From Salisapilia sapeloensis (Eukaryota; Oomycota; Peronosporomycetes; Peronosporales; Salisapiliaceae), in assembly GCA_023334545.1 (NCBI GenBank), contig JAADVB010000093.1, positions 1 to 63,143 of the forward strand: a stretch of 63,143 nt of DNA, read 5' to 3'. How positions within the stretch are numbered: the stretch's first letter is position 1; each line of letters begins with the position of its first letter. This document shows, one piece after another, positions 39,329 through 58,017 of this stretch. The position numbers and the translations under genes were made by a program. The notes beneath the pieces were generated by a model. It had not been told where the DNA came from. It saw only the letters and a list, made by a program, of their open reading frames with translations, and did no database searches.

Positions 39329-40960
39329 TTAGACGCCCATGCTTTGCCCAAAGGCCTGGATGAACTCATCCAGCGCATCCGTATGTCCTCCCTTGGCCCT
39401 CCCTCTCGGCAGCTCCTCCGGTCGGTACAGGTCCACGATCAGGATCGTCCGGTTCTCCGTCGGATGGCTGTTGAACGCGTAGTGGAGCTTACTGTCGTCG
39501 AATACGAGCACCTCATTTGTCTTGTGATACTTTTTCTCTCCGTCGTTCCCCACCACCATCGCACAGCAGTCCTCTCCGTCTACCGTCGGCACATCTAGTG
39601 GCAGGTGGCACCGGAGGATGTGGTTTGACAGGTCGGCCCAGCCTCGATGGGCGCCCAGTGTCGTGCCGGGCCCGAGCTTGGAGAAGAGGGCAGTGCGGAT
39701 GCCTGGGAGTTGCCGTAGGAGCTCGACGGTGCGAGGACACCTGTCGCATGTGGTGGGCACCCACGTCGTCTTGGACGCGTCCCACGCCGGGAAGGTGTAG
39801 CAGAGAGGAAAGACGCGCCACTCGCTGTCTTCGTCCATGTAGTGGGACTCTGGCCAGAAGGGCCACGTGGCCGTCTTCTCCACCGCCTTCATCTCGTCCA
39901 AGATCGTTTCGAAGTGGTCTTGGAGGAGACGGAGGGCAGGGAAGATGGACTGGTAGTCGTAGTAGTTGGGCAGGTCGTCATCCTGGATGTTGTTGATGTC
40001 ATCCTCGGACGCAGTAGCGTCCCAGAAGCTAGAGTCGTCTTCCTGGTACTCATCCGTCTGGCCTTGAGGTCGACGACGGAGACACACGAGACGGTAGTCC
40101 ATCTCTCCGGCTTCTAGTCGCCGATAAGTCTCAGAGCCTCTGACGAAGAACACCTTCTTCATCTCGTCCTGGAACTCGAGAGGGAAGAGCTGCTCGATGA
40201 GCGTCGTCATGGTGCTAGAGGAGGCAGCACAGGCTCTCGCGACGTCCTTCCCGACGCGTCTCTCGTGTAGAATGTCAAAGCCAGCGACGCTAGGGTCGGA
40301 TCTGGCGAGCGAAAGGAGCTCTTCTTCTACTGTGTCTGATGTGCTTGGCACCAAGTCAGCTAGGAGTAGGATGCCACCTGGACGCAGGACACGGAGAAAC
40401 TCGCCAATTGCTAGCTGCAATCGATCTACCTCGTGCAGCGTCTGGACGGTCGTGAGGAGGTCGACGGAGGAGGATGGCACCGACAGCATCTTTTCACAGG
40501 ACGTGTGGAGAGGTCTAAAGGACGGAGCGGAGGAAGTCTTGTGCTTGCTCAGATGCTGCTGCCACACATCTTTGGCACGAGCGAGGGCCTGGCTGGAAAT
40601 GTCGACACCAACAAGGTGGATGTCTGTGTCTAGGTAGGAGTGGATGGCAGCTAGACCTCCGCCTGGACCACAGCCGACTTCGAGGACGTTGGCAATCGGT
40701 CGACTGTCGTGAGGCAGGAGAGACAGGAGCTCATGATACAGTCTCTGATGCAAGGTGTCTGGAGATACTTTATCATCATCCTCGTCGGTGATGAAGAAGC
40801 CGAGGTTGCAGCAGATGAGATGGTGGGCTGAGTACAGGGGTGCGTAGTAGATGCCGTCGTAGAAGCCTTGGACGCCCATACTGTCCAGGTCGAATTGCAA
40901 GATACATTCGGCTCGATGACACGCATGAGCGGGGAGAGTTTTATGAGATGCTGGTGGCAT
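39329..40960 (-). CDS. SAM methyltransferase fused to aspartyl/asparaginyl beta-hydroxylase domain
   Basis: Single exon, 543 aa from ATG 40960 (internal ATG at 40879 also possible). Residues about 30-275 are a class I methyltransferase: motif I VLEVGCGPGGG, acidic LVGVDISSQAL, VDLLTTVQTLHEVD, and FLRVLRPGGILLLAD. Residues about 330-520 are an AspH-type 2-oxoglutarate dioxygenase: LGPGTTLGAHRGWADLSNHI with the first iron-binding His, EVLVFDDSKLHYAFN with the second, and TILIVDLYRPE with the 2-oxoglutarate Arg upstream. AspH enzymes bind iron with two His only. An acidic, Asn/Asp-rich linker separates the domains. The fusion suggests sequential methylation and hydroxylation of one substrate, protein or small molecule; this is inference. 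Confidence 0.88.
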   Translation of the reverse strand: MPPASHKTLPAHACHRAECILQFDLDSMGVQGFYDGIYYAPLYSAHHLICCNLGFFITDEDDDKVSPDTLHQRLYHELLSLLPHDSRPIANVLEVGCGPGGGLAAIHSYLDTDIHLVGVDISSQALARAKDVWQQHLSKHKTSSAPSFRPLHTSCEKMLSVPSSSVDLLTTVQTLHEVDRLQLAIGEFLRVLRPGGILLLADLVPSTSDTVEEELLSLARSDPSVAGFDILHERRVGKDVARACAASSSTMTTLIEQLFPLEFQDEMKKVFFVRGSETYRRLEAGEMDYRLVCLRRRPQGQTDEYQEDDSSFWDATASEDDINNIQDDDLPNYYDYQSIFPALRLLQDHFETILDEMKAVEKTATWPFWPESHYMDEDSEWRVFPLCYTFPAWDASKTTWVPTTCDRCPRTVELLRQLPGIRTALFSKLGPGTTLGAHRGWADLSNHILRCHLPLDVPTVDGEDCCAMVVGNDGEKKYHKTNEVLVFDDSKLHYAFNSHPTENRTILIVDLYRPEELPRGRAKGGHTDALDEFIQAFGQSMGV

Positions 40961-42461
40961 TTTGGTATCTGAGTTGAAACGTTTCAACCGAATAAGTCTG
41001 GATGTAGCAACTTCAAGGAGAACATGCCGAGGTTGAGTGTCAGGTGGACGCTGGGAAGAGGGATGTGAGAGTAAGTGATACTGTTGGTCAAGGATGGAGA
41101 GCGAATAAATCGGTTTGACTTAGGAGTGACAAACTTGGCTAGTTTTGTTATCTTGTAACGGTTACAAGAGATTCATGACGGACGTGATTGACGATACTAG
41201 CGGTATAATCTCGGCTTGTTTCATCCGTCTAGCGTTGTCTGAGTGTTGCAATGTACGGTACTTGAGTGTTTTGCATGCGACCGATGCTACATTGCTCCGG
41301 CTTCCCGTCACTATCTTTGTCTATCCTTTTCTAAGACGACACTGGCGACAGGATTTGAAAGATGATTCCCCTGACACATCCGAGTAGTTCTCTTGGGAAA
41401 GTGGAAGCAATTCATACTAGCATGTGCGTTCAGTCGTACAGGTTTGACTCGGTACGGATCTATTGATGTTCTGGTCACTGAAATAAACTTTGACAGTGCC
41501 GTGCACGACGCTTCGTCGAACCAAACAATGTAGGATGGAAGCTTACGAGGTGCTCTATTCGAACAGTGTTCCCCTCTGACCACAATCGTACATTATTCCC
41601 CATGCATGTGAATAACCTATATCCTTGCCTGTTTGTGAAGCAAGACAACAAACTAGACAGCAAGCGTCTCGAGTTGATACGCGCAGACTGCCACATGTCC
41701 ATTCGTACATCAAATTGTAACCGAACGCCGGAAAGGACCAGCTATAGACTGCTTCTTATTATTTGCACTTTCAGAATAGCTAGGCTATGAAAGGATGCCA
41801 CAAAGTACATGCTGGACAAGTATCTATCCTTACCACTCCTTTACATACGTTCTATACGACTTAGGATGCTGCATGTGGGGAACGCTGTTCTTTTTTTCCA
41901 TCTAGCTATGCCATTCGATGCATTTATAGCACTCACGGACGATTACAACTTCCATGCTTAGCAAAAGAGATGGCAAGTGAAGCGGCCATCAAGTTTACGA
42001 GTCAAAATTTTACCCGTTTCACGTCTGTGGTGGAATAAGTCCAGGGTCTGTAGACTTTTACGAGAGAGATCTATGTTCTTGCTATGAAGCCCCTAGGTTT
42101 CCGTGAGAAATCGGATGCTCCAACGAAAAGGCAGTGAGGTACCAAAATATATTTCTACCAACCTCGGAATGCTATACTAGCGAGTAGGGACTATCGTTGC
42201 GTTTAGGAATGTCCACATACTGCGTTACCGCTAAGTACATGGTCCGTTCTAATCGTACAGATGGGCCTGATCCGTTTATATCTGTTCTTCGTTTGAGCTT
42301 TTCATTGCTCATGGCATCTTATAAGTCATCCTTGTGCAAGCAGTGGTAACGAAGGAGTGATCAAAGATCACATTAAACCAATTGTATTCGTGACCTTTGC
42401 GTCAGTCTTTCCTGTCCCTCTTAGAGACCTATTAAAAGCTCCGTTGTAATCTTGTCGTCTC
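40961..42461. other. Intergenic, no gene recognised
   Basis: About 1.5 kb between divergent genes. Several frames of 75-90 codons on both strands show no family pattern. It should contain the promoters of the methyltransferase-AspH gene and of the small disordered protein gene. Confidence 0.5.
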
Positions 42462-43094: not shown

Positions 43095-46000
43095 TCATCT
43101 ACCGAATGAAAAAGCACTCGGGTTCTTCTCGAGCTGATCCAGCTTGTTACCGAGAGACGCCGAGGACGGCAGTCCACCCGTCCGCCTCCCTCCATGTGCA
43201 CTACCACTGGCAGCTTCCGGTGCCCTGGAAGAACCAACACGAAAGTTGGACAGCGCTGGCGAGTCCATCGTCGCGGAGGCGAACCTATTGGCGCTGCTCT
43301 GCCCTAGCTCATTCCCACTGGAGCTGTGGCGCCGGTGGTGGTTTGCTCTCGGCGTTGCACTCTCGACTCTTGCAGGTGAAGTCGCTTCCTTCTCTTCCAC
43401 CCTCTTTCTGTCTCGCGCCAGTGGCAGGTCGAGGTTCTGGCACTGACATTCGCAGTCGGTGACAGGGCACACGCGGTGGCTTTCGAACCAGTTAGACATG
43501 TGATGTGCGTGTCCGCCGTGCTTGCAGGACTGGCACCACGTGAACCATTCGGCGAAAGGGATACTGGAGAGCTGGGCGAGACTCTCCTGCGACGTCTTGC
43601 TGCTGCCGTCATCATGCTCCAGACCGGCATTGCCCTGCGTCGTGAGAGAAGACGCGATGCTATCGGCCTGGTGCTTGCTCCGTCGATGCGCGAGCTCAAA
43701 GTACGGGTTGAGCGTCCCGAATGGCATGAGACAGAGGGCGCATTGGGGCAAAGGCTTGCGGCACGTAGGACAGCAGGACAGCTTGGGCTTGGTGCGGTTC
43801 AGCCAGGACGCATGGGAGCCTCCTTGGCGCAGGAGGTTGGACAGGGACAATGACGTGTTACAAAAGTTACAACGAGCAAAGAGCTGCGGGTCTATGCGGA
43901 GTGTCGTGGGTGGTTGGAGGGACGCCGTGACATCGGATGTGACCTGCTCGTCGTCTTCCGCCGGCGCATCTAGGGACGACAGGTAGTTCTCGAACTGCGC
44001 TCGACCGACGTCGAAGCGAGCGCGTTCGTGGAAGAGCTGCCACTGGTTCAAAAGGTCTCGATAGACCTCGACCCAGTGCCACATGGCTCTCGTCCGCGCG
44101 ACATGGGCGACCGGCAGACGTGCCGCCAGTAGTGCCAGCGTCTGGACGTCTCCGCCGCGGTCAACGTACCTCTGTAGCAGCTTGCGGCCGCTATCTCCGA
44201 GACCTGTGACGAGCAGACCGTCGAGGCGGCCGATGAACTCGCAGTCCTCTTGTTGCTGGGTGACCCACGTGAGAAGTCCTTCCGCAGGCAGGTAGCGACA
44301 CGCGAGGGCGAGTCGGTCGCTCAACGGGAGCGTCGTATCGCTCAGCAGCGGTGCGTACATGCTGACAGTCGGCTGCTTGGCAGACGCATGACGTCCGGAG
44401 AGCGTTTGGAAGGCCGAGTCGGACGACTTGATGACCGTCAAGAACGTCAAGAGGGCAAAGAGGTAGCGAGGTTGGTGCGGCGACAGGATCTCTTCTCGTC
44501 GCAGCAGTTGCTGGCACATGCCGCTCCACATGGATGTGGAGGCGCCGGAGGCCGTAGAGTACCCCGCGACAGCCATCGCGACGAGCTGCAGGACGTCGGA
44601 CGAGTACGGCGCCGAGACGCTCACATGCAGGTGCTGCATCTGCGACAGCCACGCGGCACCTTGCTGGAGCAGATGAACGGCCGCGACCAAGTCGCCGTGG
44701 AAGACCGCCAGTGCCGCGCCGCGCGCGTAGCTCTTCTCGGTCTCGCACTTGCGTAGAATGCTCTTGAGCTCATATCTCTCCGACTCGATCGCGTCCTCCG
44801 AGGTGCTGGCGCGACTGCTCCGGAGACTCGCTGGCTCTTCCTCCTGCTCACCGTTCCCTCGACCGCAGTTCGGATCCCAGTTGCACGCTTGGAGCGCCAG
44901 GCGCCGACCGACACCGTCGTAGTAGCAGCACCCGAGCACCGCGTCGACACAGAGCTCCGACTCGATGCCGGCGCTCAGTCGGGACTTCTGTCGCGGCGAC
45001 GTCGCTGCGTGATCTCCGGCGTACAAGAGGTCGCGGACACCGCACGTCTCGAGGGCGGTGGCGCTCGTCCGCCAGCCACTGAGCGCCTGGAGGTTCGTGT
45101 CGGAGTGCGCGAGGCGGCGCAGCGTCTCCACCTGCTCCACCCACGTCCAGAGACTGCGGAGTTGCCGATGTCGCTCCGACGACGCGTAGAAGAGCTTGAG
45201 GTTCGTCGCGACGGACATAGAGTAGCCTTGCTTGGCCAGCGAGTACATGGCGCGCGAGATGTCTTCCGCGTCTTGTAGCGTCGACGCGCGTTTCAGCGCT
45301 CCTTTCTCCATCCGCGCCTGTTGCTGCTCGGCGTCCATAGCGCCGGAGAAGAGGACGCGGCCGCAGCTGAAGCCAAGGTCGCTCAGAGGCGACAACGCGA
45401 TGGGGATCGTGTCGTGCACCGACATGTCCTCGAGCTCGCCTGACAGATTCGCCGTCAGAAGCCGGTTCGGGAACGCCGCGGCGGCGATCGCGCGCGCATC
45501 TGTGTGCTTCTCCTGCGGCGGCCACCCGGCGCTGGTTTCCGTCGCGCGAGGGACGTACTGCCACGAGAAGGAGGACAGAGGACCGGACGTGTACCGCCGA
45601 CGGAAAGGTTTCTTCACCTTGTGCGTCTCCTGCTCCTCGGCGCCGTCGCTTGTGGGTGCGCTTCGCCTTCCGACTACCTCTTCCTGCTCCAAATCTTCAT
45701 CCAGCTCGAAAGCCGTCTCAGCGCCGGCGTCCCACAGCGACACCCACTTCTCCTCCGCGGAGGACGTGATGAGGATGCCTGGCTTGGCGGGACACCAGGA
45801 CACCTGCGTCAGCGTCTTGCTCGTTGGGTGCAGCGACAGCACTGGCCCAGCGCTCGAGTCCAGGCGACGAATGTCCCACACTTTGATCGGCTCGTTGTGT
45901 CCGTCCGAGTACGTCGCGACCATGTGCGGTCGGTGGCGATCAAAGTCGACGCCGAGGACGGACTTGGTGTGCGCCACGACGCTGAGCGGCGAGTGCGAGT

Positions 46001-46823
46001 TCTTCGTCCGGAGGTCGTAGATACGGAGCCATTTAAAGCCCGTGCCTGTCGCCAGACACGTGGGCTGGTGCGGCACCCACGACAGCGCCACCGTCGCCTC
46101 TGAGTTCGATAGTTCGTACAAAGGTTTATCGTTCGAGTCGCGCTTGTGGACGCTCGAGTCGTGCCGACTGCGCGGCGGCGACGCACCGCCGGCCGAATTC
46201 GACATCACCGAGTGGGCACTCGGACGGCGCTGGGGACCTGCCAGCGTCATGCTGTTGCTACCGTCCAGCGCTTCCCCCGGGTCGCCTACGAACTCGGTGC
46301 CGAGGTCGTCGCCGCTGCTGCTAGCGTGGGACCCATACTGGCCTGGCGATGGCGCCGAGACGCTCAGGCCAGGGACGGCGGAAGGCGGCGTCCCCGTCGC
46401 AGCCTGGACGTCCCATACGAGTGTGCAAAAATCGCTTCTAACTTTCTCGAAGCCGGCGGCTAGCTGGTTTGGTATCGCAGCGTTCCATGCGACAGCATTG
46501 CATGGACGGCTATACTTTGGATGGAGCTCGCCGGCCGTGGCGTTCCCGGCGCTATCCTGGAAGTCGGTCAGGACAACTTTGCCGGCACCTACGCCTGCAG
46601 CGATGAGCGACGGACAGTGACTCGATGGGCTCCAGGACAGACACTTGAGCTGGGAGATCTGAGCATTGATTTTAAGCAATCGAAAGGAACGCTTGCGATG
46701 CGTAGTGCTGGCGTTCGAGGCAGAGTCAAAGGTAGTCTCGAATAGCCGGAGGTTGTCTGTCCCGACGGCGAAGAGCGACGAGTCGTGTGGACTCCACTCG
46801 ACCACCGTGCGCTGCCGGCTCAT
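43095..46823 (-). CDS. MIOS: MIOS/Sea4-like subunit of GATOR2
   Basis: Single exon, 1242 aa, longer than human MIOS (875 aa). The N-terminal about 400 residues form a WD40 propeller (VEWSPHDSSLFAVGTDNLRL, LKCLSWSPSS, VAWNAAIPNQLAAGFEKVR, IKVWDIRRL, LTQVSWCPAKPGIL). Ser-rich inserts around 170-230 explain the extra length. A helical middle follows. Residues about 1020-1170 form the MIOS-type zinc/RING end: CNFCNTSL, CCPTCRKPLPQCALCLMPFG, WCQSCKHGGHAHHMSNWF, CPVTDCECQC. GATOR2 activates TORC1 by opposing GATOR1 when amino acids are plentiful. The C-terminal about 70 residues are Ser-rich and disordered. Confidence 0.9.
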   Translation of the reverse strand: MSRQRTVVEWSPHDSSLFAVGTDNLRLFETTFDSASNASTTHRKRSFRLLKINAQISQLKCLSWSPSSHCPSLIAAGVGAGKVVLTDFQDSAGNATAGELHPKYSRPCNAVAWNAAIPNQLAAGFEKVRSDFCTLVWDVQAATGTPPSAVPGLSVSAPSPGQYGSHASSSGDDLGTEFVGDPGEALDGSNSMTLAGPQRRPSAHSVMSNSAGGASPPRSRHDSSVHKRDSNDKPLYELSNSEATVALSWVPHQPTCLATGTGFKWLRIYDLRTKNSHSPLSVVAHTKSVLGVDFDRHRPHMVATYSDGHNEPIKVWDIRRLDSSAGPVLSLHPTSKTLTQVSWCPAKPGILITSSAEEKWVSLWDAGAETAFELDEDLEQEEVVGRRSAPTSDGAEEQETHKVKKPFRRRYTSGPLSSFSWQYVPRATETSAGWPPQEKHTDARAIAAAAFPNRLLTANLSGELEDMSVHDTIPIALSPLSDLGFSCGRVLFSGAMDAEQQQARMEKGALKRASTLQDAEDISRAMYSLAKQGYSMSVATNLKLFYASSERHRQLRSLWTWVEQVETLRRLAHSDTNLQALSGWRTSATALETCGVRDLLYAGDHAATSPRQKSRLSAGIESELCVDAVLGCCYYDGVGRRLALQACNWDPNCGRGNGEQEEEPASLRSSRASTSEDAIESERYELKSILRKCETEKSYARGAALAVFHGDLVAAVHLLQQGAAWLSQMQHLHVSVSAPYSSDVLQLVAMAVAGYSTASGASTSMWSGMCQQLLRREEILSPHQPRYLFALLTFLTVIKSSDSAFQTLSGRHASAKQPTVSMYAPLLSDTTLPLSDRLALACRYLPAEGLLTWVTQQQEDCEFIGRLDGLLVTGLGDSGRKLLQRYVDRGGDVQTLALLAARLPVAHVARTRAMWHWVEVYRDLLNQWQLFHERARFDVGRAQFENYLSSLDAPAEDDEQVTSDVTASLQPPTTLRIDPQLFARCNFCNTSLSLSNLLRQGGSHASWLNRTKPKLSCCPTCRKPLPQCALCLMPFGTLNPYFELAHRRSKHQADSIASSLTTQGNAGLEHDDGSSKTSQESLAQLSSIPFAEWFTWCQSCKHGGHAHHMSNWFESHRVCPVTDCECQCQNLDLPLARDRKRVEEKEATSPARVESATPRANHHRRHSSSGNELGQSSANRFASATMDSPALSNFRVGSSRAPEAASGSAHGGRRTGGLPSSASLGNKLDQLEKNPSAFSFGR

Positions 46824-47741: not shown

Positions 47742-48056
47742 AAGTTTATGCTATGTACTCTCCGTCTTCCCACGACCGTTTTACATAGAGCAAACATACA
47801 CTTTAAATCCTGCATGCATACGTCTCTTCACCGTGTTTAATGCGAATGCCCATTTCTTACAGCACGAGTGCGAGAGAATTATGAGGAGTACCATCTACTA
47901 GCTACATTCTACATAAATATTCGGAAGAGGCAGACATGATATTTTCGATGCTCTTCAATGTACTGCAAAGATGACATGCGACCAGGAAAGGATTGGTCAG
48001 GAGCTACCATAAGCCAGTGCCCAGACGAAAACGAAAATTTACTACGCATTCGCGAA
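47742..48056. other. Intergenic upstream of LETM1-like gene
   Basis: About 315 bp with no gene seen. The LETM1-like reading frame is open back to 47958, but that part does not look like a mitochondrial presequence. Confidence 0.45.
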
Positions 48057-49205
48057 ATGGCATCCCAGTTACTGTACCGCCCCACTACCGCGCTTCTCGT
48101 GCGTGCACCCTGCCGCAAGTATGCCCCTGTACTCGCCACGACGCTGCAGACACGGAGCTTTTCGACGCCGTCGCCCATGGACGGCGAGACCGAACTGACG
48201 CCGTGGCAAAAGGTGCGTCGATGGCTACAGCCGTTTGCGACGGGGACCAAAGCCATGTACCTAGAAAACAAACAGGCGTGGCATATCCGCAAGCGTCTGA
48301 AGGCTGCGGAAGAAGCAGGGGATGCGACGCCCACCGAGACCAAGCTCACGCGGCAGGAGATGATCATTCTTCGTCGAGCTCACCGTGATCTTCTAAAGTC
48401 GCTGCCGCTCATGGCACTCTTCACCGTTCCATTGCTCGGCTACATCGCTCCTATCATCGGTTACCAGTTCCCGAAGCAGTTGCTGCCGTGGCAATTCTGG
48501 CGTCCGGACCAGAAGACACAGTTCTTCCGAGAAGATGCCTTGGCACGGGCTGCGTACTACCCGAAGCTGCTGACGTTCTTGGAACGCATCGAGGAGCCCC
48601 AGGTCGCTGGTGACTCTGGTCCGGGCTCATCGTCTTCAGGTGAGACGGAATCGCTCAAGCAAATGCTTCGAGACAACAGCGATGGTGCGGATGGATTGAC
48701 ACCTGCACAAGTCGCGGAGCTAACTCCTTTCTTCGACGAGATCGGTCCGGCGAGTTTGACCAAGCTCAACTGGCAGCACATTAGCACGCTGACCGAGTCC
48801 TTTGCGGTGTTCCCGGCGTTTTCCTTTGTGGCCAACTTTTTCCCTCGTAGCGTCCTCTTGAACCACTTGGAGAAGCAAGGCCAGCAGCTCGCTGTCGATG
48901 ACCAAATGCTCTTGCAAGAAGGCATCGAGTCCTTGTCGTTGAACGAGCTCGAGTTTGCCTGTGCGGAGCGTGGCATCGTGTATGGCTACGGCGACATGGA
49001 AGCTCTTCGCTCGGCTCTGAACCAGTGGCTCGAGATGTACGACAGGAGTCAATTGGGCTCAGCTTCGCCCCGTGCGCTTCCGTCGTCCTTGCTGCTGCAT
49101 GCGCCGGCGCTATCCTTGTTCTCAGCGCCTTCGACGCCACGACCAGAGGTCGAGCCTCTAGAAGTCGAGCAGCTCGAGCAAGAGAAGACGAGTATCTCTG
49201 GATAA
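48057..49205 (+). CDS. LETM1-domain mitochondrial inner-membrane protein
   Basis: Single exon, 382 aa from ATG 48057; the frame continues upstream to 47958. ATG 48057 gives MASQLLYRPTTALLVRAPCR, rich in Arg and hydroxylated residues and lacking acid, typical of a mitochondrial targeting presequence. The LETM1 core follows: LTRQEMIILRRAHRDLLKSL, a membrane segment PLMALFTVPLLGYIAPIIGY and FPKQLLPWQFW. The ribosome-binding-like domain has ESLSLNELEFACAERGI and LRSALNQWLEMYD. LETM1 proteins affect K+/H+ or Ca2+ exchange and mitochondrial ribosome binding. A second weakly hydrophobic stretch (LLLHAPALSLFSA) precedes an acidic tail. It is shorter than human LETM1 and lacks EF-hands. Confidence 0.85.
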   Translation: MASQLLYRPTTALLVRAPCRKYAPVLATTLQTRSFSTPSPMDGETELTPWQKVRRWLQPFATGTKAMYLENKQAWHIRKRLKAAEEAGDATPTETKLTRQEMIILRRAHRDLLKSLPLMALFTVPLLGYIAPIIGYQFPKQLLPWQFWRPDQKTQFFREDALARAAYYPKLLTFLERIEEPQVAGDSGPGSSSSGETESLKQMLRDNSDGADGLTPAQVAELTPFFDEIGPASLTKLNWQHISTLTESFAVFPAFSFVANFFPRSVLLNHLEKQGQQLAVDDQMLLQEGIESLSLNELEFACAERGIVYGYGDMEALRSALNQWLEMYDRSQLGSASPRALPSSLLLHAPALSLFSAPSTPRPEVEPLEVEQLEQEKTSISG

Positions 49206-49348: not shown

Positions 49349-52300
49349 CTACTCAAGCTTAATTTTGGCCTTGGGGATGTGAATGACGTTGGCGCCAGTG
49401 ACTTTTGTGAGCGTCTCGGGGGATCTCAAGACTCGTATGAGCGTTTCAAAGATGCGCACTTCGTCTTTGAGATGACCGATGTAGTTTCCGTCGCGCGCGA
49501 TGTAGACGCCTTCAATGAGCTCTAGGACGTCCTCCGGGTCCGGCAGTTCAGCGTACTGGATCTCGAAGATCTTGCCTCGGAAGAAGCCTTTGACGGCACT
49601 TCCGATCGTCACGACGACGAAGAAGTAGACTGCTGCGAGACCGTACTGGTCAATATCGAGCGAGTTGAGGCCCTGGACGATATTGTCCGATACGGCGATG
49701 ATGCAGAAGGGCATCTGTTTGGAGCAATAGTCCTCTTTACTCGACGTCGCTTCGTTGAACGAGTCGATGGTCCACCAGCTCTGCGAGTCGGCCATGTGTC
49801 GCTGCAACTTGATGCTCCTCATGGTCGTGGATCGATTCAGCACGCCTTCCGTCGCTGTCAGCTGCATGATCGGAGGGTACAGATCCGGCACAAGCAGCGG
49901 CTCCGTGCTTTCGATCGAACTTCCGTTCTTGTTCGTCATGTCGAGCATGCGTACGAGGAGCTCTCTCTGCTCTGGATCAAGCTGTCCGTAGTACTTTTGC
50001 TCGACCGTCTCGTCATTCTCAGGTCCAGGTCGAACGAACGTGAGCTTCATGCTCCACTGGAGCTTGGTCGTGTTCGCCTGGATCTGCGACACGAGGAGGT
50101 CGATGCGCGGTGGAGACGTCGTCCAGATGTACCTCGAGAACGGATTGAATCGAATGCGCTGGACACTCGCGCCTTCCGTGTTCTTGTCGATGTCAAAGTC
50201 TGGGCTATTAAAGTCTGCGTTCGAGTACAATTCGCTAAAGGTGCCGAATGAGTCTTCGAGGCCAAAGACGACGGTCGAGTGCGTGACTTTATTCTCGGCC
50301 GTGGACGGATTCGCAGAGCTGAAGATCGCGAGTGGGCCGATGAGACAGAGCAAGAGGAAGAAGAGCATGACACCAGCCGTCATGAGTTTGGTTCGCATCG
50401 GCTGCCGGCGTTTGCCTTGCAGTACCTCTGCTTCTTGTACTCTCTTACGCATTTCTAACTTTACTTTAAAGAGGTGGGCACCAGCGTCTTCTAGAAGGAC
50501 CCAATGGGCCCACTCGAGCGACGTCTTGGTGCAGATGTAGTCTAGCAGAGCTCGCATCTCGAAGAGGAACGGGATGAGCATCATGAGAGGGAACGTGACT
50601 TCCGACAGCTTGGTGTAGATGTTGTGCTTGGTGTAGTTGTACCTGGATCCGCGGAAGACCTGGTAGCCGTATCGGATCTGAAGCGCACCGAGCCATAGGT
50701 AGCAGCATTGGACGAGGTAGAAGATGACGAGACCGGCGCGGTGCTGAAAGTACTTGTTCGTATGCGATGGGATGAGGTACCACACGGTCAGGTGGAGGAC
50801 GAACGTGTAGACGTATTGGAGGACGAGTTTCGCACGTAGAGAGCCTCGTACGAAGGCTACTCGGTCCCAGATGACGGTGATCATTTGGATAAAGACCGTC
50901 AGGACGAGGTAGCCAGAGAGCATGGAGCTACTGGTGAGTCGACCACTGGCGTTCGCTACGTCGCTCTCGTCGCTCGGTTCGCCAAAGTCTTCGAAGAAGA
51001 TGAGCGAGTACACGATGAGGAAGAGCTGGACAGCCAGTGATGACGTGTAAAAGTCTCTCCCAGGCTTCTCGCCCTGGACTGCGACGTAGATGTCTTTATC
51101 CCATTGCGGCGGCGGGTCCGCCATGACGCCTTGGAAGTAGTGGTAGACCTTTGGGATCTTTTGCTCGAGCCACTTTTGCTTCGTATGCCCATTCACGTTG
51201 GTCGTCGAGTCCTCGATCTCGACTTGCTCCGTCTCTTCGACCTGCTCCTTTTCTTTCTTCTCGTCCTCTGGGATCGAGTCGGACGAGAGACGCTGAGGAG
51301 CTTGGTGCTCCGCTCCCTCCTCTTCCTTGTCTTCTTCCTCTGCCGCTTTCAGTCGTTCCTCCTCCTCCTCTTCCTCTTGCAGCTCTCCTAAGAGCTCCGA
51401 GGCCAAGTCGGTACTCATGTCCGTACTCGGCTTGCTCATGTGGTTGCTGATCGCCGTCGTCGTCGTCTGTCTCGTAAGCATGTGGACATCTCCTAGTCGA
51501 GCATCCGTGGATGATCCATTCTCCATCTCGGAGCTCTCGTGCTCCGAGCTTTGTCTCGCAGTCGGTTGCGGAGGTAGCTGCGTCATGTTATCAGCCGGAC
51601 GCATGCTACTGACGCGATAGACTTCATCGATCGAATCTCGAGACGAGCTCTCCGAGTTCTTGATCACATCCGAGTGGAGCACCATGTCTTCATCTCCTTC
51701 CTCCTCCTTGGAGATCCAGAAGCCTCGTATCATGAGCTCTCGCCTGTGCCAAAGGATCGCGAGGACGATGTAAAAGTCCCATTGAAGACCAATGTAGATG
51801 CTGCTGATGCTACTGATGGCGCTTTCATCGAACTTGTACAGGCCGAGCAAGACCATCGGCTGGATGGCTTGCGGCGACCGAGTGATCGTATACGAGTTCA
51901 TGGACGTGCAATGGGGCTCAACGCTCGGGACGTAGTACCCGTCGTTATTCAGTTTATCGCAAAAGACCGACAGCTGATACGCGTACCGGAGGCCGATGAC
52001 GAGGAACGAGTAGAGGAGGAGGGTGACCCATGCCTTGGCGCTCGGCCGCGGGTTTTCCAGGATCAAGTAACAGAACGCAAAGAGGACGTAGATCATGTTC
52101 AAAAGGTCTGCCTGGCTCATGAACGAGATGACCATGACGAGGCAGCACACGGCGGCGCTGTGGCTGCGGAAGACGTTGGTCGTGATGCGCAGGAGCTCGG
52201 CCATGGATGGCTCGAACTGGTCTTCCGGCTCGTATCGTATCGTGTCGAGTCGAAAGCCAGCGTCCTGGAGCTCGTAGACGAAGCGGTATACCGGGATGCG

Positions 52301-55300
52301 CCAGCTCAAGAGCGACTTGCTCGCTTCTTTATCGAACTCGAGGTCTTCCAGGTCACCCAGAGTGCTCTCGTCGCCCGTTACGCTACTCCATTCGCTGTGG
52401 CTGTCGTCTGTGTCGTCGTCCTTGCCGTAGATGTCACGCGCCTCTTGGTCCAAGGGACTCGGGAGGTTCTTCTCCGCCAGTGTCGACAGGATGCTGGGCT
52501 GCAGCGCGTCCTTGGGGGCAGCGAACGCGAGCGCCTGGAGAAACTTGGCAAAGTCCTGCACCTGTTCTACCTGGAATTCATACTTGAAGTCGCACTTGCG
52601 TTCTGTGCTGCGGACAACGATCTGATATGTGTATAGGAGAGGCGAGACGTCGTCGAACTGGACCTTGTTCTCGCTCAGCTGAAGCTTGAGGACATGTCGC
52701 CACGGGAACGACGTCTTGATCTTCTTCCGGCGCTTGCGACTTCGATGCTTGAGCGCTTTCTCTTCATCCTGGTAGAACGCCAGGCCGTTGTTGTCGACCA
52801 CGACATATCGATGGAGGTACTTTGGTCGCATCCAGGACACGACAAAGTCGAGCTTCGGGGGAGGAACGTGTTCTCGTCGGTACTTCATCCACCCGGCGGT
52901 GCACGTGCCATTCAGGTTGAGCGCGAGCGTCGACACGGGGTCACAAGCGGTGCTAAAAGGTCCTTCGCCCATGCGAGAGACGGCCGCCACTTTGAACTGG
53001 TAGCTCGTGCCTGGTCGCAGGCCTTCGATTGTGACTTGCGTCGTGGATCCCTTGACTTCCATGAGGTCTCCAAAGTCTCCTAGTAAGGTTAAGGATGGGT
53101 ACTGCTGTCGTACGATGCGGTAGAAGCGGATCTTATGGAGCGACTCGGACGGAGGCTCCCAGGACAAGGTGACCGAGTTCTGTGTCGTGTCGACGACTGT
53201 CGGCCGAGGCGGTGCCATGGGTGGAAGGTTGTGGTGGAGTCCCATGGCGATGTCCATGAGCTCATGGACTTTGTGCACGAGTTTCGACACGATGACACGC
53301 AGGCGTTGGATCGCCGCGCTCTTCTCGCGTTTCATCTGGAGCCACTGGGCCGTCCGCTCTTTGAAGAAGGCGCGAGTGATCTCGTAGCTCCGGACATGGG
53401 CTCGAAGGAGCTCGCGTTCATAGTACTGACAGACCTCAAAGTATGACGAGCTCTGGAGCATCTCGCACTGGACGCTGATAAAGGCAAAGACGACGATCAG
53501 CCCCACTGGTGTATAGTCGAGCGGGACGCCCAGGAGGTTGGCGATGGACGCACAGCCGCCGTAGGCGTCAGCAGCCGAGCGGTTGCCGAGCTTGCAGTCG
53601 AGGAGCTGGTCTCGAAAGTACGGCGCTTGGAGGACAATGATAAGGAAGAGATGGAACCAGTTGAAGCGTCGGAGGTAGCGGATCCAGACGTTCTGCGGGT
53701 CGCGCGTGTCGTCGATGCGATAGAGCATGACGCCGGACGCCCAGACGTACGCGAGCGACAGGATACCGCCTTGATTGGCGCCGACGACGAAGCACGTGAA
53801 GAGCACGACTGGCAGCCACGTCGACAGGACGATGAACTCGAGGTAATACCACATGTACTTGCGCGTGCGCATGATGTACTGGGATTCTGGCTGAACCTCG
53901 GGCGACTGGGCAGTGAGGCCGCTGGCGCCAGAGGCATGACGCGCGAGAGGCGAGGCTTCCATGACCGAGACTTGGTTCAACGGCGTCGGGCCGGAGGACG
54001 GTTTGAGGAATCGATGGGACATGGGAAGGAGGTAGACTGCCATGAGCGCGATGAAGTCCGCGAGCATCGCCCACTTTTGCTGATGCGCGAGCATGTACCA
54101 CTGCTGGTAGTCTAGAGGGACGATGCGCCAAGGGAAGGTGCTTTGTTTGTCCCATCCCAAGTCTGGCGGGAGGAAGAGGAGGAGATAATACTCAATGAGA
54201 ATGACAAGAGAGAGGACGATGGCGAGAAGCAGCCATCGCTTGATGACGTTCACTGCTTTGGCATACATGAGGCTATAGACTATCAGCATATACGGAATGG
54301 ATACAATGTCTTCATGCAAAAAGCTAGAGACGACAAAGAGCAGGATGACGGCGTTCACGGACACTTTGCTCGCATAGTCGACGCAAAAGTCACGGAGACA
54401 CGAGAGGAAGTCTTTGTCGCCTGCGCCGGAAGAGTACCCAGCGTTCAGGAGCATGGCCGTGGACGATGGACTGCGTGGCGAGTCGCCACGGACGCCTGTG
54501 ACATGGGACATGTTGGAGGGCGCAGTGCTCGGCGGATGGACGTCATCATCGCTGTCCATGATCGCGACGTTCGACGCTGTCTGGTGCTTAAGGTCTCTGT
54601 TGCCCATGCGCTGGGCAAAGTCATGCTCAAAGCGTGAGATAGCGAGCTCGACTCGGTCTTTCGATCGATTCGGAGTAATGCCGGTGCTGCCGTCAAAGTA
54701 CTGTGCCGCGCGATGGAGGATGCACATGCCGACGATGGCGAGTTCTCCGCTCAAGAGACCCCAGAGCGAGGCCGTCGCTTGGTTCGTGTCATACCTTTCC
54801 GAGAGACGCAAGAGACCGATCCAGTCGGTCGTGTCTTGGATGTGCGTTGGCGCAACGTTGGTCTCCTGTTCCGGGTCAAAGGTGCTCATCTGGATGAAGA
54901 ACTTGAGGACGGCGGCAGTAGCTGCGATCCAGAAGAGTGGTCGCCAGAGACAGCGCCAGTTGCCGCTAAAGAAGCGGCCGAGGATGATGGTGAGGACGTA
55001 GAGAGCACCGATGGCATCGATCTTACGAATCGCGACTACCATGGAGATGATCGTTAGTGCAGGCGTGCTGATGGCGACGAGGATGCGACGTATCGAGTCG
55101 AGAGCGAAGAGGAAGCGATCTGCCGCGACACTTCTTCCTGCAGCGAATAAGGGATAGACCTTGACGTCTTTGGACATGGAAGACATTTGCCAGAAGGTGA
55201 GTGCCATGAGAATGGCGGTCGGGAGGAGGTAGAAGAAGACATTGGAAAGGTTTTTATAAGTCGAGTGGTTTTCGAGGCCAATAGCTTCGGCCGAGACAAA

Positions 55301-58017
55301 GTGCGACGTGAAAAAGTGTTCTTCCAAGTAGTTCGCGACACGATCGAATTGATAGATGTAGCGACAGGTGAGGACGAGGAGCTCGATGAACAAGGCGAGT
55401 GACCAAAGGAGTTTTAGACGAAGACTTGTGCGTGGTGCACCGAGGAAGCCACCGAGGTGATTGCCGAGGATGAGGAAGAGCAGGACTAACTGGATGGCAC
55501 CGACAAAGTTCGTGTGCAATGACGTCACGCCTCGCTCGTACTGCATCGAGACGACGAGGAACGCAATGTAGCACAAGAGAGCTCCGCCGATACGAAAGCA
55601 ATTGTCGATTTCGACGACGAGACGCGAGACGAAGTAGATGGGGTTATGCACCGCGTCATGGATCGTCCGTTTCCCCTTCTCGATCGTCCGTTCATTCGCG
55701 ACGTACAGCGCCATTTGGAAGACAAGTTGGAAGACGATGACGAGTTGAGCCATGAAGAGCGTCGGCCAGAGCGCGCCCCATGTGTTGGCGTTCGGGTCGA
55801 AGCAGACGAGGCCGATGAGCGCCAGACGCTCGTTCTCTTTGCAGTCAATGTTCCGCACAAACTGCGCGAGGCACGCGAGTAGCGCGTAGCAGAGCAAGAC
55901 GCGCCAGAACTGACGTCGACGCTCGAAGAAGAACATGAGGACAACGGCGATGGCGAGGTAACCGATTTGAATGAACGAAACACGAGTGCTTAGGACAACG
56001 GCGAGGATGGTCACGAGGACGAGGGCGTCGACGTGGGTCATTACGACGATCTTGGCGTCTGCGAGCCACAGGCCGACGATGCTGCGCCACCCAGACTCGA
56101 GCTGAACCTGCATCTCCGCTTGCATCTGGATATCTTCTGTACTCGGTCGATGCTCAATGTCCTTATCTTCATTGGAGATCGTGCCAGAGGACGTCCGCGT
56201 CGGCTCTGGCGCCATCTCTTCCATGCGTTTCTGCCGCTGCGACTCTTTCAACAGATCTTCAAAGCGCCATCGCGTCCGGATGGAGTAGAAGAGGAAGAGA
56301 AGACAGAGATTATGCATACCTAGGTCTAAAAAAGGGTACTCGAAGGCTTTGAGGCCGATGCTGACATACTCGTCCTTGTCGATGAGGCCGATGGTCAAGT
56401 TGCAGATGTACTCGACGATGGCGAGGCCGACGCCGTAGCACGGGAGGACCCAGATGACAAAGGCTGGTGTCGGGAGACCGTAGAGTGCGAGGTAGAGGAA
56501 GGCCCAGGCCATCATGGGCGTCGACAGGTACGAAGGGTACGATACGCACCAGCAGATAGCCCAGACGCTCGCGAGGAGGAGACCTCCGCCACGCAGCAGG
56601 ACGCGCGTGAAGAACGGCTGTTGGTTCAAGAGGTCTTCGATGCGGACGCTCCCTTGCTCCGTCGCGCCGGCGTCCTGCAGTGGAGCCGCCGCAGCGCCGT
56701 GCATGACACGATCGTTCTTGAAGACCTCGTCCTGTAGAATCCGCAGCTTGGCGCAGCACACCATGAGGAGCGTCTGGCAGATTAAGAGGATGTAGTGCGT
56801 CCAGTCGGCGTGTCCGTCGGAGAAGTCGACGAAGCCGGCGTAGAGCGCGATCTTTTGCATCGTATCGTTCTGTCGGATGTCGCCAAAGTGGTAGATGTAC
56901 CAGAGGACATTCATGACGGCAGACATGCCCATGAGGAACGTCGTGACTTGTCGTCCGAGGAACATCTGAGCTGTCACTTTGTACGTCTGACGTGCCTGGA
57001 GGTGCGCAACGGTCTCTTTCTTGGCTTTCCATGTCCAGTGGACGAGGCGCTGGAGGAAGATGAGGTAATAGACGGCAGTGACGAACGCAGGGACGCTGAG
57101 ACTCGTGATGAACAAGAGCGTGGCGGTGAGCAGACCAACAGATCGGCGCATGGCTCTTGTCTTTTGGAAGGAACTGCGTTTCGTGCCTCGAACGCCTCGC
57201 ATGAGGTGGTCGCCGAGCTCAAAGACGTCTAGGTACTGCCGCTTAGCGCGCAAGTGCCGAAGGACATAAAAGTAGTGGAAGAGGCTACAGACGATGACGA
57301 TGGTATCGACGCCAAAGCTCGTCCAGTAGTCTATCGCGCCGTCCATGCGGTCGAAACCAAAGTACGAACGAGCGTCTGCACCCGGGAGCGAGTCATGCGT
57401 TTTAAATAGAACGAGAAAAGTGATATGACCGACGAGCGCTAGTAGCGAGACGGCAAAGGTGACGAGTGCGAGGGGCTTGGAACCGAATGATGTAATGGTT
57501 CCGAAGCAAAACGCGAGTAAATAGTACAAGGATACGACGTTGATGCGGACGAGAGCGCATGCGAGGAGGCAGACGGCGAAGACGACGTCCGCGAAGGTTT
57601 CCAGGAAAGCGATGGCGTTGATCGATAGACCGTTATTTTTGGATCTGTAGCAGTAGAGGAGGTCAGCTAGCTTACGTAGGAAGTATACTAGTACACGTAC
57701 GTCGCACGCGTCGACGTCCCATCGGCACGGTGGGAGTTGGTGGCGAAAGGAGCATATTGCGTCCGGAACGACTGCTGTGTCGGGATAGAGCTCCCGTCCT
57801 GTACTTGTGGCAGCGCCGTCGTGGAAGCCGTGCCACGCGATTGAGCGTCTGCGTTGGGTGTATTAATCTCCCGATAGGGCGTCGTCGGTGCCGAGCTCGG
57901 TCGTTCTGGTGATCTCGAGATTTGAAAGGACCGATTATGCTGTGTCGGCATGATGGAAGATGGCAACTCTTCGGCTGATGGCAGTCGTTGTTGACTCGTA
58001 CGTCGCCGGAACGCCAT
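49349..58017 (-). CDS. PIEZO: Piezo mechanosensitive channel with FN3 and PH-like insertion
   Basis: Two exons (57701-58017 and 49349-57644; intron 56 nt, GTACGT...CTACAG) encode about 2870 aa. Exon 1 encodes a hydrophilic Ser/Pro/Gln-rich N-terminus of about 105 aa. Exon 2, 8.3 kb uninterrupted, encodes the many transmembrane helices of the Piezo blade. At about 1580-1680 is a fibronectin type III domain (SVTLSWEPPSESLHKIRFYR, GLRPGTSYQFKVAAVSRMG). At about 1690-1810 is a PH-like domain (HRYVVVDNNGLAFYQDEEKA, DFKYEFQVEQVQDFAKFLQA). Acidic coiled-coil-like sequence lies near 2170-2270. The C-terminus has the cap-domain region and the pore end VIHIPKAKIKLE preceded by RVLRSPETLTKVTG, the Piezo signature. 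Piezo channels open on membrane tension and pass cations. The long antisense frames in this region are codon-bias shadows. Confidence 0.93.

Follow-up and report, generated by a model that had tools for sequence, protein, structure and literature searches.

The window, a stretch of 63,143 nucleotides from the oomycete Salisapilia sapeloensis, carries on its minus strand an open reading frame that four Pfam families assign to the Piezo channels. Its features, including a cassette of FN3 and PH domains, are listed in order along the forward strand:

49349..57529, minus strand: Piezo channel open reading frame, 2726 aa from the listed TTG, in a frame open for 2837 codons
49394..50185, minus strand: Piezo cap family match, aa 2449-2712
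50318..51058, minus strand: THU9 and anchor, aa 2158-2404
51716..52165, minus strand: THU8 (Pfam THU_Piezo1), aa 1789-1938
52364..52396, minus strand: linear motif SEWSSVTGDES in the PH-to-THU8 linker, aa 1712-1722
52526..52909, minus strand: PH domain, aa 1541-1668 (Pfam stretch 52526-52861)
52706..52750, minus strand: lysine/arginine-rich PH loop between predicted strands 3 and 4, aa 1594-1608
52922..53236, minus strand: FN3 domain, aa 1432-1536 (Pfam stretch 52949-53215)
53081..53110, minus strand: FN3 signature RQQYPSLTLL, common to the Piezos of the environmental clade B described below, aa 1474-1483
53246..53437, minus strand: beam helix with its conserved MDIA end, placed by MAFFT alignment with animal Piezos, aa 1365-1428

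Homologues extend upstream of the listed TTG start. The cap family matches with 188 bits, THU9_anchor with 196.3, THU_Piezo1 with 85.9 and TM1-24 with 29.4, all above their cut-offs, and PF25288 gives 16.4 bits, which is below its cut-off. The cap, the THU9-anchor region and the THU repeats follow one another as in Piezo channels, and this reading frame is the single Piezo cap match found across the 19.5-Mb assembly. The motif PF(X2)E(X6)W, described in the available part of a 2013 study as absolutely conserved in the Piezos of that study (PMC3681921), is a conserved mark and does not define the family. In the window protein (aa 2320-2331, PFLFEMRALLDY) the P, F and E of the motif are kept and W is replaced by Y. 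Taking the first pattern match in each record, Tyr stands in place of the Trp in 21 of 25 oomycete records and Trp is present in 2, and the remaining 2 have other letters there, perhaps from chance earlier pattern matches. The Trp is found in all 11 clade B proteins and in 46/54 Piezos outside the oomycetes and clades B and C; it is not universal, since P0026, which is not an oomycete record, also has Tyr.

The adjoining genes are MIOS-like (43098-46823, minus strand) and LETM1-like (47958-49202, plus strand), and no link of either to the channel was seen. A 320-aa open reading frame (51674-52636, plus strand), a mechanically listed candidate, overlaps part of the cassette and THU8 on the opposite strand. 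Further along the window, a 552-aa open reading frame (39332-40987, minus strand) combines a methyltransferase domain (aa ~100-230) with an aspartyl/asparaginyl beta-hydroxylase domain (aa 357-523), and we know of no other such pairing in one reading frame.

The last helix of THU7 continues into the beam, through which the animal Piezo rows align with the oomycete rows (MAFFT). The beam is predicted as one helix (model residues 2-61), its segment has 67 residues in all 20 full oomycete rows, and it ends in MDIA in 22/22 oomycete rows. The long beam helix is followed by a proline-rich joint, the FN3 domain, the PH domain, an acidic and serine-containing linker and THU8, and this order is the same across all aligned oomycete rows, with a nearly fixed net spacing. 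The Pfam FN3 match (aa 1439-1527, E 2.9e-17, better than the curated cut-off) starts about 10 residues past the last beam residue, across the proline-rich joint, and the FN3 fold was also recovered by structure prediction. The nearest FN3 folds include those of the intracellular, filament-associated proteins titin, myomesin and integrin beta4 (the last in complex with plectin), but many extracellular proteins are also among the neighbours, so the fold by itself does not point to a function. The second-position G+C of the FN3 stretch is 0.50, versus 0.33-0.40 in other regions, as expected from its different amino-acid make-up, and the third-codon-position G+C is 0.70 in FN3, 0.74 in PH and 0.69-0.83 in other regions.

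The PH domain gives a weaker signal. The plain Pfam PH model scores 18.6 bits in the window protein alone (cut-off 25.1), 25.2 bits with its frame neighbours and 28.4 bits in the Phytophthora infestans homologue. PF00169 is precomputed in 14/25 oomycete rows, P0023 has no PH match and P0025 has one of 14.7 bits. Profile-profile comparison gives 95.5% for PH versus at most 0.5% for nine controls. The seven strands of the PH fold (model residues 177-188, 205-211, 215-219, 240-242, 246-251, 268-274 and 279-287) and its C-terminal helix (290-303) are all predicted. In the fold search, all 50 of the matches listed are FN3-type and the PH part is barely probed. The PH profile has 7 matches among PDB sequences up to E 1, the best at 0.25; four are named PH proteins, and the other three, KIAA0053, ROCK2 and beta-spectrin, are presumably PH chains as well. 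The canonical phosphoinositide-binding signature, K-Xn-(K/R)-X-R, lies in PH strands 1-2. It is incomplete in the oomycete Piezo PH: the strand-2 Arg is present in 22/22 rows, and the residue two before it is L, I or T and is basic in 0/22. The loop between strands 3 and 4 contains 9-11 Lys or Arg residues in 22/22 oomycete rows. Non-canonical lipid binding by this domain is possible.

The identity of these parts, an oomycete Piezo with FN3 and PH between the beam helix and THU8, is near certain. A Piezo with FN3 and PH in line in one open frame had been proposed by a sequence-only reading of this DNA, and the raw DNA frame, Pfam, the profile comparison and the predicted strands bear it out. 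The HMM search and structure prediction suggested there agree with the proposal: the Piezo families and FN3 are above cut-offs, the PH domain, weak in the window protein, is upheld by the P. infestans homologue and the profile comparison, and both folds are predicted. That reading had set the cassette between blade segments; the inserted position stands, and the exact site is the interval from beam helix to THU8 rather than simply between blades. From homology with animal PIEZO1 we infer that this slot would be cytosolic, at the pore-side end of the beam. The structure model of beam, FN3 and PH has a pTM of 0.50, which is too low to fix the domain orientation, and a 1101-residue model for placing FN3-PH relative to the pore (mean pLDDT 53.3, pTM 0.28) was too poor for use and was set aside. 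In the linker, WSSVTGDES is exact in the window protein and in 20/25 oomycete records, and SEWSSVTGDES could be a candidate phosphorylation or docking site.

FN3 is annotated in 23/25 oomycete records (P0001-P0025, with P0016 counted as oomycete by its tree position), and with the same order in the aligned rows this confirms the earlier expectation of an FN3-PH pair conserved across oomycetes. The two records without FN3 annotation, P0021 and P0024, are both Phytophthora kernoviae gene models missing FN3, PH and the latter half of the beam along with other channel stretches, and they are probably faulty gene models rather than true skipping. The beam-to-THU8 interval has 430-468 residues in 22 aligned oomycete sequences including the window protein. 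Counted net, 149 residues separate the strand-2 Arg of PH from the beam end in 21/22 and 153 in one; P0022 and P0023 make up for a slightly shorter start of PH with a slightly longer FN3. The mean identity of the window protein to 19 relatives is 0.77 in CTD, 0.69 in FN3, 0.61 in THU9 and anchor, 0.58 in the beam, 0.57 in PH and 0.43 in the blades. FN3 is thus the second most conserved of 11 channel regions, after CTD, and this identity indicates a tighter constraint on it than on most of the channel.

The blade units, beam, THU8, THU9, anchor, cap and CTD of animal PIEZO1 and PIEZO2 are recognisable in the oomycete channel by Pfam and alignment, and the difference lies after the beam, where the animal channels have plugs and latch, which shut the side exits of the pore, with loop and clasp, and the oomycete channel has FN3 and then PH. 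In human PIEZO1, the intracellular side from beam to THU8 comprises the central plug, lateral plug, latch, latch-to-clasp loop, clasp and clasp-to-THU8 linker, according to the available part of PMC12308237. One disordered stretch of the animal interval has 239 residues in PIEZO2 versus 99 in PIEZO1, and deletion of the latch-clasp loop in PIEZO2 leads to higher unitary conductance (PMC8924262, from the part available). No animal-type plug or latch was found after the beam in the oomycete interval, by eye and by profile comparison with 4 animal rows; the profiles of oomycete FN3 and PH show no similarity to the animal interval (0.2% and 0.4%, with 4 of 19 chosen animal rows aligned).

Among the literature sources, the available text of PMC4820453 goes no further than a tally of Piezo homologues in oomycetes (a single Piezo-1 homologue for P. 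infestans, 3 for S. diclina) and has nothing on FN3, PH or their position. The available text of PMC3681921, on protozoan Piezos, makes no mention of fibronectin, pleckstrin or Phytophthora, and the accessible part of PMC13413365 has calpains as its subject. The oomycete Piezo records of the databases have the same family and domains as the window protein, and one from Plasmopara bears the name 'putative pleckstrin domain, fibronectin type III, immunoglobulin-like, Piezo family', by which the co-occurrence of FN3 and PH in a Piezo is already public. Among the titles listed in the literature searched and in the text consulted, with most subscription journals outside its scope, no description of FN3 or PH in a Piezo was found, and the position and distribution of the cassette appear nowhere.

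Two environmental clades, found by searches with two divergent matches, have one of the two domains each. By precomputed Pfam, clade B (P0029, P0083-P0092) has FN3 without PH in 11/11 proteins and clade C (P0062, P0073-P0075) has PH without FN3 in 4/4. Pfam was rescanned in 1 of the 11 clade B proteins and 3 of the 4 clade C proteins, and PH gives 25.8-38.9 bits in the latter 3. Both domains lie between beam and THU8, as in the oomycete channels. Clade B resembles these in having FN3 after the beam with the same signature and differs in lacking PH, whereas clade C shares a PH domain in this interval and differs in having no FN3 and a longer linker from beam to PH. FN3 and PH therefore do not evolve as one unit, as these clades have either alone in the slot. 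Neither domain is found by precomputed Pfam in 54 of the 94 Piezo records, those outside the oomycetes and clades B and C, and the plant, animal and several protist Piezos returned are without both; the sample comes from three protein searches and is shaped by their queries, so these counts are not frequencies. In the clade C protein P0075, aa 2451-2522 at the C-terminal end may be a PDZ domain (19.2 bits, below the cut-off of 27). Two pattern scans of viral contigs for copies matched 11 stretches and 1 stretch, none of which was confirmed.

The signature [KR][QRE]x(1,2)Pxx[TS][ILV][LFI] is present in 33/33 oomycete and clade B Piezo FN3s and in no other FN3 of the pool, a count made after it had been spotted in both sets and so not an independent test; elsewhere it occurs 3 times in 162,141 residues of 61 other proteins. 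Profile comparison of the oomycete and clade B FN3s gives 96.9%. A clade B FN3 profile scores the 22 oomycete Piezo FN3s at 28.7-46.0 bits, above every single non-Piezo FN3 (at most 18.5, in a small pool). In the other direction, the oomycete FN3 profile scores the FN3 of L006, an unrelated protein, at 46.2 bits, above clade B at 22.9-36.2, and places one FN3 of P0054 (33.2) among clade B. Because the rankings agree in one direction only, the case for FN3 orthology is not one-sided. With a five-row clade B profile, the best PDB chain reaches 34.7 bits in two stretches, within the oomycete range of 43.3-31.1 among the matches listed. L006 (G000:C122:28603-28884), from the same genome as the window, appears nuclease-like by eye and holds the best non-Piezo FN3 of the pool by the oomycete profile.

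In two channel trees, with SH-aLRT as the only support measure, the window protein branches outside the rows sampled from Phytophthora, Pythium, Globisporangium and the downy mildews (95% and 96%), and the Saprolegniales rows lie outside the group that it forms with them (100%). Oomycetes and clade B come together in both trees, weakly (20% and 17%), and a branch with 98% support separates these two from animals, plants, clade C and some protists. FN3-less protists stand on the oomycete side: P0065, P0081 and P0082 in the first tree, and in the second, from which P0081 and P0082 were left out, P0065. The FN3s of oomycetes and clade B are probably one inheritance, and the PH domain looks separately acquired; an FN3 gained once and a PH gained separately would be the simplest reading. 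The view that FN3 would be the older core part and PH a later lineage-specific addition is weakly supported, by the FN3 without PH of clade B together with the signature it has in common with oomycetes, and it depends on the weak joining of oomycetes and clade B in the trees and on the one-directional FN3 rankings. Comparison of the oomycete PH with the clade C slot (hhalign, 6.9%, E 0.005) falls short of a common PH origin. The animal plug and latch look like the clade C PH by eye, and shared ancestry was considered for this reason but rejected, as hhalign gives a non-significant 0.24% (E 0.25, with 4 of 19 chosen animal rows matching the beam pattern).

The function that we tentatively prefer, at somewhat less than even confidence, is that the cassette may take the place of plug, latch and clasp, as folded domains at the tip of the beam. 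The FN3 domain would sit on this tip as a rigid block, packed beneath the pore module. Since no long tether separates the compact FN3 from the end of the beam, the block should move with the beam tip: it would do the work of plug and latch by holding the side exits, or closing them, while the blades are curved, and would travel with the beam as the blades flatten under tension. The PH domain may rest via its basic loop on the inner leaflet or on a neighbouring channel surface, by an electrostatic contact, and the charge of the lipids would through it set how easily the beam moves. This mechanism is favoured because of the position of the slot, the fixed beam length, the constraint on FN3, the fixed spacing and the kept basic loop. 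Against it count clade C, whose PH without FN3 means that FN3 is not needed in every such slot, and the plant and several protist Piezos without both domains by precomputed Pfam, so that Piezos in general do not require a folded block. The P. kernoviae models without the cassette are also counted against it, though other stretches are missing from them too.

Several other explanations share this evidence. FN3 and PH might instead bind a partner protein or the cytoskeleton, so that filaments and membrane both pull on the channel through an attachment at the beam tip. The filament-associated proteins among the nearest FN3 folds, the strong constraint on FN3 and a PH domain without part of the canonical lipid signature, as in many protein-binding PH domains, speak for such an attachment, but the many extracellular proteins among the fold neighbours speak against it, and we consider it rather unlikely. 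That the PH domain is a specific phosphoinositide sensor licensing gating, a link to phosphoinositides that the earlier reading had suggested, with FN3 as its spacer, is possible but less favoured, and in our estimate improbable, because the canonical signature is incomplete in 22/22 rows, with a residue two before the strand-2 Arg that is never basic. An identity higher in FN3 than in PH is odd for a mere spacer, and clade B retains FN3 without PH. In favour of a sensor are the Lys/Arg-rich loop kept in all rows and the functional importance of PIP2 for Piezo1 activation, reported in the available part of PMC13232553.

A tolerated, largely neutral domain insertion into a disordered loop would agree with the disordered stretches of varying length in the animal interval (PMC8924262, available part) and with contents of the slot that differ by lineage. 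It is strongly disfavoured and very improbable, given an FN3 second only to CTD in conservation and the same net spacing in 21/22 oomycetes. Even less credible is an artefact, be it gene-model fusion, assembly error or a read-through intron, for which the two P. kernoviae models without the cassette region might be cited. The earlier reading had already excluded a gene-model fusion, and artefact and fusion are rejected here on the open frame in raw DNA and on homologues from many genomes that share this order and spacing; in third-position G+C, too, FN3 and PH stay inside the span of values seen in the other regions.

The step by which a moving beam opens the pore of a Piezo and its side exits has been studied mainly in mammalian channels, where a plug, a latch and mostly unstructured loops make up the stretch from beam to THU8. 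The folded replacement preferred here could belong to a wider pattern, to which we give somewhat less than even odds: the post-beam stretch would be a socket in which whole eukaryotic lineages swapped the animal-type plug, latch and clasp for folded modules, FN3 having been gained once, in a line to oomycetes and an uncultured clade, and PH at least twice. If this is true, side-exit gating in Piezos would be done by different parts in different lineages and would depend on the binding of each module. Domains that are compact and can be expressed separately, at the point where beam couples to pore, would make this coupling testable by deletion, swap and binding. Since FN3 and PH are absent by precomputed Pfam from the animal and plant Piezos returned, the trait separates the channels of water moulds from those of their hosts.
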